Assembly: GCA_035532835.1 (NCBI GenBank)
Contig: DATKQG010000008.1
Location: 1-64,000 of the forward strand
Reading direction: 5' to 3'
Length of the DNA: 64,000 nucleotides
Source of the DNA: Candidatus Dormiibacterota bacterium
GTDB taxonomy: Bacteria > Vulcanimicrobiota > Vulcanimicrobiia > Vulcanimicrobiales > Vulcanimicrobiaceae
Every line of letters begins with the position of its first letter. Position 1 is the first letter of the stretch. The notes beneath the pieces are model-generated. The model did not search any database. It saw only the letters and a program-made list of their open reading frames with translations, and had not been told where the DNA came from. The translations under genes were made by a program, and so were the position numbers. Below are positions 53,937 to 59,004 of this stretch, one piece after another.

Positions 53937-54588
53937 ATTTCGGCCGCTTGCCATTCTTGGGCTTCTCGGGACGCTGGCTTTGACCGGCTGCGCGGGACCG
54001 ATCGAGCGTTGGATCGTGCAGACGCGCGTCCACCAGGGCGACGTCGCGCTCGAACGCGGAAACCTTGCCGATGCCGAGCTTTCGTATCGCCTGGCGCTAC
54101 GCGTCGATCCGGCCGACGAAGCCGCCCGCACCGGGTTCGTGCAAGCCGCCGGCGACTACGCCCAGGCCGAGTATGCCAAAGGCCAATTCGATACCGCGCT
54201 GACCATCATCAACGAAGGGCTCAAGAGCGATCCGTCGTCGGTGCGCCTTTCGGCTTTGCGCACCTCGATCGATCAAGCCAAGCTCAAGCGCGAGATCGTG
54301 ATTTCGAATTATCCGACCTATCGCGAAGCCGGGCTCCAACTGCAGCGCGCGTACGCCGAGATCGACGTTTCGAATAAGGCGATCATGGCGAGCCTGCGCA
54401 GTTTCAGCTACACCTACGATGCGGAGCAACTCACCAAAGCGATCAAGCAGAGCTACGAGTTGCAACTCGATGTGGCCAAAGACACGAACCGTCTGATCGT
54501 CTACCGTCAGTTAGTCGAATCGGGTGTTCCGGAGTCGGCGCATGCGACCAGCTCTGCAAGCGGCGCATCGTTGCTACCACTCCCGTAA
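53923..54588 (+). CDS. TPR-like lipoprotein
   Basis: The 221-residue protein has a lipoprotein signal peptide with an LTGC lipobox (Cys about residue 23), then helical repeats resembling TPRs (VHQGDVALERGNLADAELSYRLALRVDPADEAAR; QAEYAKGQFDTALTIINEGL). The C-terminal helices are less regular. It should be anchored to a membrane facing the periplasm. ATG 53923 is used; it overlaps the end of amj by 14 nt. Confidence 0.75.
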   Translation: MYIFKFRPLAILGLLGTLALTGCAGPIERWIVQTRVHQGDVALERGNLADAELSYRLALRVDPADEAARTGFVQAAGDYAQAEYAKGQFDTALTIINEGLKSDPSSVRLSALRTSIDQAKLKREIVISNYPTYREAGLQLQRAYAEIDVSNKAIMASLRSFSYTYDAEQLTKAIKQSYELQLDVAKDTNRLIVYRQLVESGVPESAHATSSASGASLLPLP

Positions 54589-54592
54589 GCGC

Positions 54593-55474
54593 ATGGATGT
54601 AGGCGGGATGGTTGCATGGCATCCGGTTCTAGGAGGCCTGCTCATCGTCGGGGGCGCGGTCGCGTTAGCCCTCCTCGCGGCCGAAGTGGTGCGCCGCTAT
54701 GTGAACCGCGACGTCCTGCTCGCACACAACGAGCTAGCCGGCTTTATTCTCGCCGTCATCGGCGTGGTGTATGCGGTGTTGTTGGGCTTCGTCGCCATCG
54801 GCGTGTGGGAGCGTTTCGATCAAGCTGAGGTGCGTACGTATAGCGAAGCGGGGCAGCTCGCGACGATCTACCGCGATGCCGACGCGTTCTCGGCGGGGCC
54901 GCACCTGCGCGACCAGTTGCGCAGCTATATCGAGACCGTCGTTAACGGCGAATGGCCGCTGATGCAGCACGGTTCCGAGAGCGCCCTGGCGGATCGCCAG
55001 ATCGAACGAATCGATGCGACGGTGCGGCATCTTCCGGTGCGAAACGGCCTTCAGCAGAACGCTCAGGCGCAGATGCTCGCCTCCGCGGAAGCGGCCCTCG
55101 CGGACCGCGATCAGCGGATATTCATGGATGCGAGCGGCCTGCGCCCGGTCATGTGGTGGACGCTGATGCTGGGTGGCGTGGTGACGGTTGGATTCGCACT
55201 CCTCTTCGGCTTTAGCAGCGCGCTGATGCAGCGCCTGATGATCGCCGCCCTGGCCGCAATCATCGGCCTAGTGCTCTATCTCACCCTGAGTTTGGATTTT
55301 CCGTACCGGGGCGTGGTTAGTGTGAAGTCGGAAGCGTTTTCGCAAGCGCTGGAGACGTTTGCACACATCGATGCCGAGCGTTCAGAAATGCCCGCCCCGC
55401 TCCCCGCGCGCTCGCCGTACGGTATGCCCGCCAAAATGCCTCGCCCCCCGGCAACTCTTTCGCCGGGTCGGTAA
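54593..55474 (+). CDS. DUF4239-like membrane protein ending in a dispersed repeat
   Basis: The 293-residue protein has two N-terminal hydrophobic helices, a soluble helical middle (about 75-185) and two C-terminal helices, the DUF4239/bestrophin-like layout. The last 30 residues (after about residue 263) are encoded by the 94-bp repeat at 55384-55477 and are Pro-rich, unlike the rest. The original C-terminus may have been replaced or extended by the repeat. ATG 54593 or 54608 could be the start. Confidence 0.6.
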   Translation: MDVGGMVAWHPVLGGLLIVGGAVALALLAAEVVRRYVNRDVLLAHNELAGFILAVIGVVYAVLLGFVAIGVWERFDQAEVRTYSEAGQLATIYRDADAFSAGPHLRDQLRSYIETVVNGEWPLMQHGSESALADRQIERIDATVRHLPVRNGLQQNAQAQMLASAEAALADRDQRIFMDASGLRPVMWWTLMLGGVVTVGFALLFGFSSALMQRLMIAALAAIIGLVLYLTLSLDFPYRGVVSVKSEAFSQALETFAHIDAERSEMPAPLPARSPYGMPAKMPRPPATLSPGR

Positions 55475-55477
55475 CGT
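55384..55477. repeat. 94-bp direct repeat, copy A
   Basis: Identical base for base to 57425-57518 in the same orientation. Weaker similarity extends about 20 bases to the left. It ends in a CCCGGC/GCCGGG hairpin. Here it encodes the C-terminus of the DUF4239-like protein. With copy B it brackets two DsrE-like genes. Confidence 0.95.
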
Positions 55478-55742
55478 CTTGTAAATCCTTCGGTCGTAGC
55501 ACGGAGCGTCATCGAAATACTCGATAGGAAATATCGAAATTCGTATATTTCGGTTTGCGCTCGTCGAGCGCGCAAGCGGGAAGGAAGCAGGCAAGACTAG
55601 CGTAATCCGACCGCCTACTTGCCTCGCTCTTCAAACTCATCGAACGATGACGATCGTAGTTGCCGAAGTGCTTGGAAGAGCGGTTTACGGTCAATGAACG
55701 AGGCATAGCATATTCCACACGGGCTAAATAGGAGAGAGCACG
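55478..55742. other. Intergenic region with inverted repeats before the Tat-exported DsrE-like gene
   Basis: Visibly more AT-rich than surrounding DNA. It holds an inverted repeat GAAATAT (55528-55534) / ATATTTC (55545-55551) and a longer imperfect one, AGCAGGCAAG (55586-55595) / CTTGCCTCGCT (55618-55628). No convincing sigma70 promoter was found. AGGAGAG upstream of 55743 is the ribosome-binding site. The repeats could be operators or transcript hairpins. Confidence 0.5.
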
Positions 55743-56549
55743 ATGGAAAATCGCCTTTTTACAAGACGTAGTATTATTCATGGCGCAGCGTTGGCTGGGG
55801 TTGCCGGCCTTGCGGTTCGCGGCACGGGTGCAGCGAAAGCTGCCGGCGCGAGCGGCGAGCCTGCGACGCTGTTACCGACGGGGGCTGCCACCCTTGCGAC
55901 CCTGAGCGAAAAATTAGCTAAGGCACCGCGACGGCGCGATTTTAAGACCGTTCCGATGATCTTAACCAACCCGGATCAATGGGATAACCAAGCCCTGCAA
56001 GAAGTCCTGAATTATTCAGGCGGTCCAAAACAGGTCTGGGACAATACCGATCTGTCTGGGCCGTGGCTCAATCTTATGCGGCTTTCGCTCAACTCCCAAA
56101 TTTGGTCGTTCAAGCACCCTCATTTTCTCATTGTGTCGGTCACCCATGGTCCGGCCGGCCTTGCGCTGTTCGATCAATCGATCTGGGCAAAATATGACTT
56201 TTCCAAGTTGACCAAAGGGAAATTTAAGACCAATACGTTCATCGACATTCCGGCGGCCGCCCACGCCGATCCCGCCGACTACCAAAACCCGGTCGGGGCC
56301 TTTTCGGGGAAAGCTAATAGCGTCACAGTTCTGCAGAAACGCGGCGTCGTATTCATGGCATGTCACGACGGCATCTGGGAATTAAGCATGCACCTGCGCG
56401 AAAAAGGGCACAACCCCGACAAGCTGTCGCAGGAAGAGCTGGCCGCCGAACTTACCGATCATCTGATTCCCGGCGTGATCCTCACCAGCGATGTTGTCGG
56501 CGAGTTGGTTGCGCTGCAGCAAGCCGGATTCACTTACGCTCGGAGCTAG
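55743..56549 (+). CDS. Tat-exported DsrE-like protein
   Basis: The 268-residue protein starts with a twin-arginine signal (TRRSIIHGAALAGVAGL, about 7-23). The C-terminal region matches the DsrE/DsrF-like pattern: VVFMACHDG with a single Cys207 and LIPGVILTSDVVGELVALQQAGFTYAR. DsrE proteins handle persulfide sulfur on a conserved Cys, but most are cytosolic, so export is odd. Residues 60-180 contain an extra segment of unknown role. It lies in the repeat-bracketed cassette, 187 nt before a second DsrE-like gene. Confidence 0.72.
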   Translation: MENRLFTRRSIIHGAALAGVAGLAVRGTGAAKAAGASGEPATLLPTGAATLATLSEKLAKAPRRRDFKTVPMILTNPDQWDNQALQEVLNYSGGPKQVWDNTDLSGPWLNLMRLSLNSQIWSFKHPHFLIVSVTHGPAGLALFDQSIWAKYDFSKLTKGKFKTNTFIDIPAAAHADPADYQNPVGAFSGKANSVTVLQKRGVVFMACHDGIWELSMHLREKGHNPDKLSQEELAAELTDHLIPGVILTSDVVGELVALQQAGFTYARS

Positions 56550-56735
56550 CGCTCACTCCCCTTACCGGCATTTCATCATTCCGCGGCTCCCGATCGGTTC
56601 GTCTAGGCGATCGGGCTGCCCCGGGATACCTACGACCGAACCGGCCCAATGAACGCCGGTCTGTTGGCTTGGGACATCGCCTCCCCTTCTTGGACGCACC
56701 TCTACAATCCACTGCAGTTTTGAGAGGACATATTT

Positions 56736-57254
56736 GTGAAAAAAAGTGTTATCGCGGTCGCGCTTTTGTTTTTGCTATCCTGGCAATCGAGCCTCGCGGA
56801 TGGCGTTACTTTCCCAAACGTACCGAATATCCCGATTAAACCGGGGCTGTCTTACGGGGGCTACTTTAAGGAACACCAACCCGTCAAGATCCTCTTTGCC
56901 GTCGGCCAACCCGGGCCGCAACTCAAGGAATCGCTAATCAATGCGGCGTTGGTGATTAAGTATCTTAAATCAAAGGGCTATAGCTATAAAGTACATTTCG
57001 TTTTTTATAGCAAGGCCGTATGGGTTGCGAGTGCCTTCAATCAGAAATACGGCGGTTGGGCGCCGCTATTGAGTGCTCTACACGAGCAAGGCGTAACGTT
57101 CTCGGTATGTCACAATGCCATGGTGTTATTTCACGTCAAATCGGCAGAGGTCTACCCATACATGAAAGTTATCCCGGCGGGGATTCTCTCGATTGTCGAA
57201 TATGAAATGAAGGGGTATTCCCCGATATTTAACGCCAACTCTGAGACAGAATAG
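56736..57254 (+). CDS. Secreted DsrE-like protein
   Basis: The 172-residue protein has a Sec signal peptide (Lys-rich start, hydrophobic core, ADG site near residue 22) and a DsrE-like fold: VKILFAVGQPGPQLKESLINAALVIKYL, FSVCHNAMVLF with Cys125, and VIPAGILSIVEYEMKGYSPI. The GTG start has GAGAGGA 7 nt upstream. Base composition is clearly lower in G+C than flanking genes. Together with the preceding gene it may form an extracytoplasmic sulfur-binding pair. Confidence 0.75.
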   Translation: MKKSVIAVALLFLLSWQSSLADGVTFPNVPNIPIKPGLSYGGYFKEHQPVKILFAVGQPGPQLKESLINAALVIKYLKSKGYSYKVHFVFYSKAVWVASAFNQKYGGWAPLLSALHEQGVTFSVCHNAMVLFHVKSAEVYPYMKVIPAGILSIVEYEMKGYSPIFNANSETE

Positions 57255-57424
57255 GCTCGTGCCTAATTTGACGAAAAGCGTGGTCAGCGCGCGCCGCCTT
57301 TAACGGCGGCTTACGAGTAACCACTCACCGTTAACCGGAGGAGACTTCGGACGCATGTGAAGATGCCGGCGCCAAGAGCGGCGGGCATCTTCACATGCGT
57401 GTCATGCAACGATGGTGAGCGGTG
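57255..57424. other. Hairpin-rich spacer with 17-bp perfect inverted repeat
   Basis: Contains GCCGCC (57293-57298) / GGCGGC (57305-57310), a possible weak terminator for the DsrE-like gene, and a perfect 17-bp inverted repeat, 57351-57367 with 57384-57400, separated by 16 nt. The latter lies beside repeat copy B and overlaps the end of the minus-strand glycosyltransferase gene. No T-tract follows either. Confidence 0.7.
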
Positions 57425-59004
57425 AGAAATGCCCGCCCCGCTCCCCGCGCGCTCGCCGTACGGTATGCCCGCCAAAATGCCTCGCCCCCCGGCAACTCTT
57501 TCGCCGGGTCGGTAACGTAGACGGGCCACGTCGCCGTGGTCTGCAATAGGGGAAAGCGCTGTAACCACGCGCAGAGATCGGCATTCGCGCGCAGGCGGTG
57601 GTCCTCGACCGAGATAAAGTAGCGCGCGCCTTTACGGATGGCGCTTTCTTCATCGAACGGCGTCCAGAGCGCCGGGTCTTCCTCCCAGCCGTAGCGGTCG
57701 ATGTAGTAGAGCACGTCGGGCCCGTAATGCCCCATCACGACCAACGCCTTCGGAGCGAGCGCCTTGCTCAGGATCACGGCATTGTGGTAAGCCGGCGCGC
57801 TGTAACGATAGTAGGGCGCGACGGCGGCGCGGCCTTGCACGAGCGAAGCGAGCGCGGCGACCGGCACCAGCGCCGCGGCTGCGTAGCGCGGCAGCCGCTC
57901 CATCGAAACGTTGCGGAGAGCGTCGAGAAAGCCCGAGAGCGCACCGCCGATGACGAGCGCGCACAGCGGGAGCAAGAGATACATGTAGTAATCGACGCGC
58001 TCGACCGTTACCACGACGTAGGTGTACGCGAGGCCGCCGACGAGCCAGCCCCACAGCAGCGCCTTGCTGCGTGCCTGCAACCACGGCAGCGCGATGAAGC
58101 CCGCAATCGTCAGTAAAAACGCAACCGATCCCAACATCGTATCGCGCAGCATCCCGATGACGGTGACGAACTGCGACCACTTCAGCGCAAAACCGCTGCC
58201 GGTGGTCAGCGTGGCTTTGAGCGCCGGAATCACGTGGAGCGTGGTGATGGCGCTGGCCCAATGCCATTCCGCATGCGCGTTCACGCGCTGCGTGTAAAGC
58301 GCGAGGATGATCAGCGGTACGACCAAGAGTACGAGCAGTGCGGTCGGGCGGGTCGGTTTCCCCAAACGCAACCGCTCCCACGTAACGCCCAGGATCGGCA
58401 CGATGCCTGCCACCGAGACGGGCTTGGCGAGGTAGGCAAAGACGACCAGGGCCGCCGCGCGGGCCAGCGGCCGGGGTGCGAGCGTCTCGTCCTCGAGCAG
58501 TAATCGGCTCGTCGCATAGAGTGCGGCCGTGAGGAAGAAGACCATCGTCGTATCGGGCGTGAACGTGCGCCCGTAATAAACGCTTCCTGGAAAGACGGCA
58601 AAGAAGAATGCGGCAATCAATCCGGCAAGCGAGCTGCGAAAGAGCCAGCGCGCGAACAGGCCGACGACGGCGACGCACCCCACGCTGAATGCGAGGCTGA
58701 TCAGCCGCCCGAAGATCGCGTGGACGCCGAAGATTTTATAGAGTGAGGCCGCGAGAAACGGAACGATCTGCAGCTCCAGCTCCACGTAGTTGGGCGGCGG
58801 ACCGTCGTAATTCGTCTGCGGATAGAGAATATTGTAATTGAGCCGGGCGAAATTGCGCGCGATGCTGGCCGTGTCGCCCTGCCGCCAATTCGGGTGGTCG
58901 AGAATGGGGTTGTGGATGCCGTGGAGCCGCAGTCCGATCGCCAACAGGACGATCGCAAAGAGGCCCAGGCTCCACCACCTTAGCTCGCGTGTTTGAACGT
59001 CCAA
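57391..59004 (-). CDS. ArnT/PMT-type membrane glycosyltransferase
   Basis: A 537-residue polytopic protein of the GT39/GT83 (PMT_2) type that transfers sugars from polyprenyl-phosphate donors outside the membrane. The first periplasmic loop has HPNWRQGDTASIARNFA with the acidic catalytic region, then about ten hydrophobic helices and a soluble C-terminal domain. The last 40 or so residues come from repeat copy B and the adjoining hairpin, so the native end has probably been replaced. TTG start; the gene overlaps gtrA by 25 nt. Confidence 0.8.
   Translation of the reverse strand: MDVQTRELRWWSLGLFAIVLLAIGLRLHGIHNPILDHPNWRQGDTASIARNFARLNYNILYPQTNYDGPPPNYVELELQIVPFLAASLYKIFGVHAIFGRLISLAFSVGCVAVVGLFARWLFRSSLAGLIAAFFFAVFPGSVYYGRTFTPDTTMVFFLTAALYATSRLLLEDETLAPRPLARAAALVVFAYLAKPVSVAGIVPILGVTWERLRLGKPTRPTALLVLLVVPLIILALYTQRVNAHAEWHWASAITTLHVIPALKATLTTGSGFALKWSQFVTVIGMLRDTMLGSVAFLLTIAGFIALPWLQARSKALLWGWLVGGLAYTYVVVTVERVDYYMYLLLPLCALVIGGALSGFLDALRNVSMERLPRYAAAALVPVAALASLVQGRAAVAPYYRYSAPAYHNAVILSKALAPKALVVMGHYGPDVLYYIDRYGWEEDPALWTPFDEESAIRKGARYFISVEDHRLRANADLCAWLQRFPLLQTTATWPVYVTDPAKELPGGEAFWRAYRTASARGAGRAFLTAHHRCMTRM
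57425..57518. repeat. 94-bp direct repeat, copy B
   Basis: Exact copy of 55384-55477. On the minus strand it encodes about 31 residues near the C-terminus of the following membrane glycosyltransferase (PAKELPGGEAFWRAYR and onward), a different strand and frame from copy A. The two copies lie 1947 bp apart. Confidence 0.95.

Follow-up and report, generated by a model that had tools for sequence, protein, structure and literature searches.

A probable thiosulfate dehydrogenase and an exported DsrE protein encoded between duplicated gene ends in a Vulcanimicrobiaceae genome

Two genes enclosed by duplicated gene ends

The window analyzed here is a 64-kb stretch (positions 1 to 64,000) of contig DATKQG010000008.1 from a bacterium of the family Vulcanimicrobiaceae (assembly GCA_035532835.1). 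Toward its right-hand side, two direct repeats of 94 bp enclose a compact segment with two genes, referred to as gene 1 and gene 2, and the segment is flanked by the convergent genes for a Bestrophin-like membrane protein and a PMT-like glycosyltransferase (Table 1). An earlier note on this DNA had described the segment as a mobile or excisable sulfur-handling cassette of low guanine plus cytosine (GC) content. Re-examination confirmed the identity, shared orientation, and coordinates of the two repeats. Searching the whole genome (2.89 Mb in 120 contigs) with the 94-bp sequence returned these two places only, which excludes a chance match. Apart from these copies, no 25-mer recurs on the forward strand of the window, and inverted copies of 40-mers do not occur in it. 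When the imperfect 18-bp extension on the left is included, the similarity between the copies amounts to 112 bp at 96% identity.

The repeats had been placed between the flanking genes, but they are in fact duplicated ends of those genes: copy 1 belongs to the Bestrophin-like gene and copy 2 to the PMT-like gene. Copy 1 contains the final codons of the Bestrophin-like gene and its stop codon (55472-55474). On the opposite strand, the same bases are C-terminal coding sequence of the PMT-like protein, in a frame that continues to a stop near 55317; a tblastn search matched this fossil tail to PMT residues 497-534. Copy 2 lies wholly within the PMT-like gene on the minus strand, the present end of which is at 57391. 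Because of these reading frames, the two convergent genes would have overlapped by ∼158 bp before the insertion, and the duplicated part corresponds to 94 bp of the overlap, plus 3 bp past the Bestrophin-like stop. Both frames are intact after the insertion, each with a complete 3' end, and the final codons of the PMT-like gene now come from the inserted segment. The repeat is native host sequence and not foreign terminal sequence.

The enclosed segment differs in composition from its surroundings, as the earlier note had stated. Its GC content of 0.537 over 1947 bp is below that of all 580 windows of the same size sampled in the 64 kb, for which the minimum was 0.548 and the median was 0.617, and GC content at third codon positions is 0.62 in gene 1 and 0.58 in gene 2 versus 0.75-0.83 in the ten neighboring genes checked. 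The statement that the segment holds no transposase or integrase was likewise borne out, with no recombinase among its genes and no transposase among its open reading frames (ORFs); nor were matched inverted ends found at its two boundaries. Several inverted repeats had been reported inside the segment, of which only a hairpin at its right-hand side stands out. Neither an Rfam search of 54500-58500, which gave no match, nor a promoter and terminator scan, in which the signal stayed at the level of shuffled sequence, added further elements.

Table 1. Features at the locus, in window coordinates
Feature	Position	Strand	Length or extent	Basis or remark
Bestrophin-like (DUF4239) membrane protein gene	54602-55474	+		Pfam PF14023, E=1.5e-54; convergent with the PMT gene in five relatives
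Apparent fossil of the PMT-like gene's original 3' end (GRAFLNARHRCVQTSPALAKTLPTSH*)	55317-55477	-		Reading frame; start of tail, LNARHRC, also in G001
Imperfect left extension of copy 1	55366-55383		14/18 identical to 57407-57424	
Direct repeat, copy 1	55384-55477		94 bp	Sequence comparison
Inserted low-GC segment	55478-57424		1947 bp	Not present in any class genome searched; G027 matches gene 1 only, elsewhere in its genome
Gene 1, probable thiosulfate dehydrogenase of the AFE_0042 kind	55743-56549	+		NCBIfam NF052225; Tat-type leader; DsrE-like fold (model); Cys207-His208
Gene 2, DsrE-family protein with apparent signal peptide	56736-57254	+		Pfam PF02635, E=2.2e-6; Cys125-His126 (alignment)
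Strong hairpin between the convergent ends of gene 2 and the PMT gene	57351-57400		20-bp arms, 95%	Contains the PMT stop codon
PMT-like glycosyltransferase gene, intact	57391-59004	-		Pfam PF13231/PF02366; relatives and their C-termini
Right end of insert, PMT C-terminal codons	57407-57424	-		LTAHHRC (LNARHRC in copy 1 and G001)
Direct repeat, copy 2	57425-57518		94 bp	Codes for the PMT-like C-terminus

The empty site in a sister species

To find an empty site with a single repeat copy between the DUF4239-like and PMT-like genes had been proposed as a check, and such a site was found in G001, another species of the same genus. Here, contig L033 joins the left flank of copy 1 to the right flank of copy 2. 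It aligns to window positions 55329-55477 (87%) and 57406-57569 (89%) through the same bases, corresponding to the uninterrupted ancestral order, and the aligned upstream stretch is 93% identical between the two species. Five other relatives (G009, G012, G013, G030, and G036) carry a TPR gene, the Bestrophin-like gene, and the PMT gene in that order, with the last two convergent and no insert, and 15 further members of the family have the TPR gene near the PMT gene without the Bestrophin-like gene and with no cassette. The cassette is therefore present at the locus in none of these 20 relatives. A search by gene 1 likewise found the insert at this locus in 0 of 60 relatives, and the whole insert, searched as DNA, gave no match and no donor in 117 genomes of the class.

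Taken together, the single copy in G001 and the relatives without the cassette indicate that 1947 bp plus one repeat were inserted in the lineage of the window, in agreement with the insertion proposed in the earlier note. The two copies do not differ at any of their 94 positions, whereas each differs from the G001 sequence at 9 of 94, so the insertion is recent; the duplication, or its last homogenization, took place long after the window species and G001 had diverged. With an empty site in a sister species, an identical repeat, and undamaged neighbors, the locus offers a well-dated case of a chromosome gaining a function without a mobile element.

The TPR-PMT junction was also seen to vary in the family in other ways. 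G001 has lost the Bestrophin-like gene entirely, through a deletion of approximately window positions 54592-55328 with a short, nearly identical sequence (CGTAAACG) at both of its ends. The deletion junction lies around 3464-3471 of L033 (G001:C14), as compared with window positions 54583-54591 and 55329, and the TPR gene continues directly into the 3' end of the PMT gene. Other genes replace the Bestrophin-like gene in G018, where a Uma2-like endonuclease gene was named by eye from its translation (L039 859-1437), and in G011, where an ORF was judged by eye from its translation to be unrelated (L043 3098-4159). No repeats flank the junction gene of G018, and only short imperfect ones flank that of G011.

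Predicted functions of gene 1 and gene 2

Gene 1 was identified by both family model and fold. It scored 386.9 bits against the NCBIfam model NF052225 (thiosulfate dehydrogenase), for which the equivalog cut-off is 300, and its residues 8-267 align to positions 1-259 of the 259 in the model, i.e. over the full length. The positions conserved in the family are present, and the columns of Cys207-His208 are invariant across 29 homologues. Neither Pfam, including the DsrE/DsrF-like family PF02635, nor a sequence search against the PDB, which returned nothing useful, recognized the protein. Its structure model (predicted local distance difference test score, pLDDT, 85) has a DsrE-like fold: the sole PDB match with E<0.001 was 2pd2 (ST0148; template modeling score of 0.72 by target length), followed in the fold search by the DsrE entries 3pnx and 3mc3. 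The description of both genes as exported and DsrE-like thus holds for gene 1 by fold because of these matches, with no Pfam match, and for gene 2 by its domain, and both products appear to be exported. The label of a sulfur-handling cassette can be made more precise, with gene 1 a probable thiosulfate dehydrogenase, and without the mobility attached to it.

From this comparison, gene 1 probably encodes a thiosulfate-oxidizing enzyme of the AFE_0042 type. AFE_0042 of Acidithiobacillus ferrooxidans is a thiosulfate dehydrogenase of about 25 kDa that is active at low pH (PMC6335251). The window protein shares with this type (NF052225; PMC6335251) a whole-length match above the equivalog cut-off and a Tat-type leader, but AFE_0042 neighbors doxDA, sbp, and rhd in A. 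ferrooxidans, whereas the window locus lacks these genes and has an exported DsrE partner instead. Relatives of gene 1 occur in several phyla and on 24 plasmid records. In the gene 1 tree, the window protein clusters with two betaproteobacterial proteins (support 100/100), apart from the homologue in G027, which is the only other one of the 60 relatives to have a close homologue. The G027 gene is 61% identical and lies at a different locus (G027:C3:384741-385526; L165 7739-8551), beside a gene for a c-type cytochrome; it is phylogenetically separate and was probably acquired independently. Through the insertion, a probable thiosulfate dehydrogenase of the Acidithiobacillus type was gained in a lineage where close homologues are otherwise confined to this one relative of the 60.

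Gene 2 scored 28.2 bits against PF02635 (gathering score, 22.7), and its structure model, with a pLDDT of 50, was too poor for use. No close match was found in 99 genomes of the family, where G000 and G001 each contain a single weak paralogue, and no relatives were found in phages, plasmids, or viral contigs. A gene-2-like exported DsrE protein is encoded directly upstream of the gene 1 homologue on an Acidobacteria contig (L114, 4357-4920), and a second such protein is encoded 2.4 kb downstream of the gene 1 homologue on a deltaproteobacterial contig (L104, 8033-8686), although such a neighbor was seen at only 3 of 57 gene 1-related loci. Because gene-2-like genes adjoin or lie near AFE_0042-type genes in two other phyla, there are hints of a working partnership between the two kinds of protein, one that is absent from the literature examined. 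The likely function of the gene pair is the extracytoplasmic oxidation of thiosulfate to tetrathionate, in which the gene 2 protein would use its conserved cysteine to handle a sulfane or thiosulfonate intermediate. At another locus, the two species of the genus share a distant exported DsrE paralogue with about 32% identity in the matched part (G000:C17:33275-33454, L096 1168-1689; G001:C16, L095).

Origin of the insertion

The locus clearly represents a recent gain, by horizontal transfer, of two genes with a probable role in the oxidation of thiosulfate, and a mobile element with its own machinery is unsupported. The explanation we favor, with a probability of roughly 70%, is that a foreign gene pair was captured by homology-assisted or end-joining recombination with duplication of the target, and was kept as both flanking genes stayed intact. 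About 1.95 kb of foreign DNA with gene 1 and gene 2 would have been joined in where the convergent 3' ends overlapped, and the joining would have duplicated 94 bp of the overlap, giving both flanking genes a complete 3' end. One possible route is homology-assisted illegitimate recombination involving sister chromosomes, in which PMT homology would have guided the right end; the other is that a break with a 94-base stagger was closed by end joining. Either route would leave two identical, host-derived repeat copies without a transposase; a single crossover with a circle or an att-type reaction predicts donor differences inside one copy. An insertion with this duplication would have survived through selection against breaking either gene.

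Precedents for parts of this process are known. Interchromatid integration during transformation yields duplications (PMC3784515) and resembles the proposed event in that unequal joining of sister chromatids duplicates host sequence with ordinary recombination sufficing, but the published cases span about 100-900 kb between existing repeats, as compared with 94 bp and a foreign insert here. Homology-facilitated illegitimate recombination in Acinetobacter, Pseudomonas stutzeri, and Streptococcus pneumoniae (cited in PMC2884548) similarly traps foreign DNA beside homology, with no recombinase and an illegitimate joint at the other side; it usually exchanges or deletes host DNA, whereas host DNA is duplicated in the window, and natural transformation is only putative in the bacterium studied here. 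Across three species, 10-18% of variable segments are flanked by direct repeats, and many of the variable segments were ascribed to illegitimate recombination (PMC2884548). Those repeats are mostly under 30 bp, whereas the present one, of 94 bp, consists of the gene ends of both neighbors.

The two ends of the insert are not alike, in that the right end resembles PMT codons (14 of 18 bases) and the left end is unlike the displaced host flank. The four changes within these 18 bp preserve the PMT motif FL.A(H/R)..C, and PMT tails elsewhere in the family have comparable motifs, in which a cysteine is nearly invariant (e.g. AAHHRC in G018). Given LTAHHRC as opposed to LNARHRC and the motifs in the family, the right end seems either to bring PMT C-terminal codons from another lineage or to keep an older duplicate under selection on the PMT protein.

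Genes for Ku and for a ComEC-type DNA-uptake channel are present in the genome and favor the proposed capture in that they make both routes possible, but they are permissive only and prove neither. Other points weigh against it. The donor was not found, so that neither junction can be read from the donor side, and the genome is a 120-contig assembly. Furthermore, the 18 bp beside copy 2 may be a diverged old duplicate, in which case the insertion would be older, with a longer duplication, and its 94-bp core would have been homogenized recently by gene conversion. The similarity running past the identical core and the preserved motif would fit such a history, but it requires two events, the composition of the insert has not ameliorated, and neither G001 nor the remaining family has the cassette, and we therefore regard an old insertion as unlikely.

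Some integrative elements restore the 3' end of the gene into which they insert, and cis-mobilizable elements exist without an integrase. The window shares with such elements direct repeats derived from a gene 3' end and an intact target, the PMT gene keeping a complete alternative C-terminus, and the 94 bp could accordingly be read as attL and attR of a non-autonomous element moved by a tyrosine recombinase in trans. Four integrase-family matches above cut-off are encoded in the genome, but all are on other contigs and nothing ties them to the repeat. The insert itself contains no recombinase, no second att-like sequence was found in the genome, and the viral contigs searched did not contain a 30-bp core of it. 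The junction genes of G018 and G011 have no comparable flanking repeats, and a diverged 14/18 tail beside a perfect 94 bp is awkward for a site-specific reaction. These same observations, together with a repeat that is host-native and confined to this locus, leave the mobile or excisable cassette of the earlier note unsupported, and an integrative element is considered improbable. Comparably improbable is a Campbell-type single crossover of a small circle on which the PMT 3' end was also present. It would produce direct repeats by construction and would account for the PMT-like codons at the right end, but the circle would need 94 bp identical to the host followed by 18 bp with four differences, unless gene conversion came later, and a search of plasmids and viral contigs with gene 2 revealed no circle of this kind. 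That the assembly threaded a cassette from another molecule through a shared 94-bp node is very improbable: the assembly is fragmented and short repeats are typical sites of error, but the single-copy locus of G001 coincides exactly with the meeting point of the flanks, the two neighboring genes are in frame, the similarity past the identical core carries coding-like changes unexpected from a k-mer overlap, and the assembly has no further copy of the repeat.

RecA recombination across the 94 bp could plausibly delete the cassette at ordinary frequency and with no dedicated enzyme, restoring the ancestral allele exactly. More speculatively, and with little confidence, overlapping convergent 3' ends may be recurrent capture sites in which the duplicated overlap yields compact, precisely reversible, recombinase-free cassettes with host-derived repeats. 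Were that true, gene gains could be searched for via duplicated gene ends rather than integrases.

The hairpin between the convergent ends of gene 2 and the PMT gene lacks a T tract and is therefore not a canonical intrinsic terminator. Template switching in this hairpin was considered as a source of the 18-bp divergence and was not retained; pairing with 57318-57335 is better with two of the four changes, but this does not decide the question. The hairpin has no second copy in the genome, and the 170-nucleotide region around it folds 7.4 standard deviations better than shuffled sequences.

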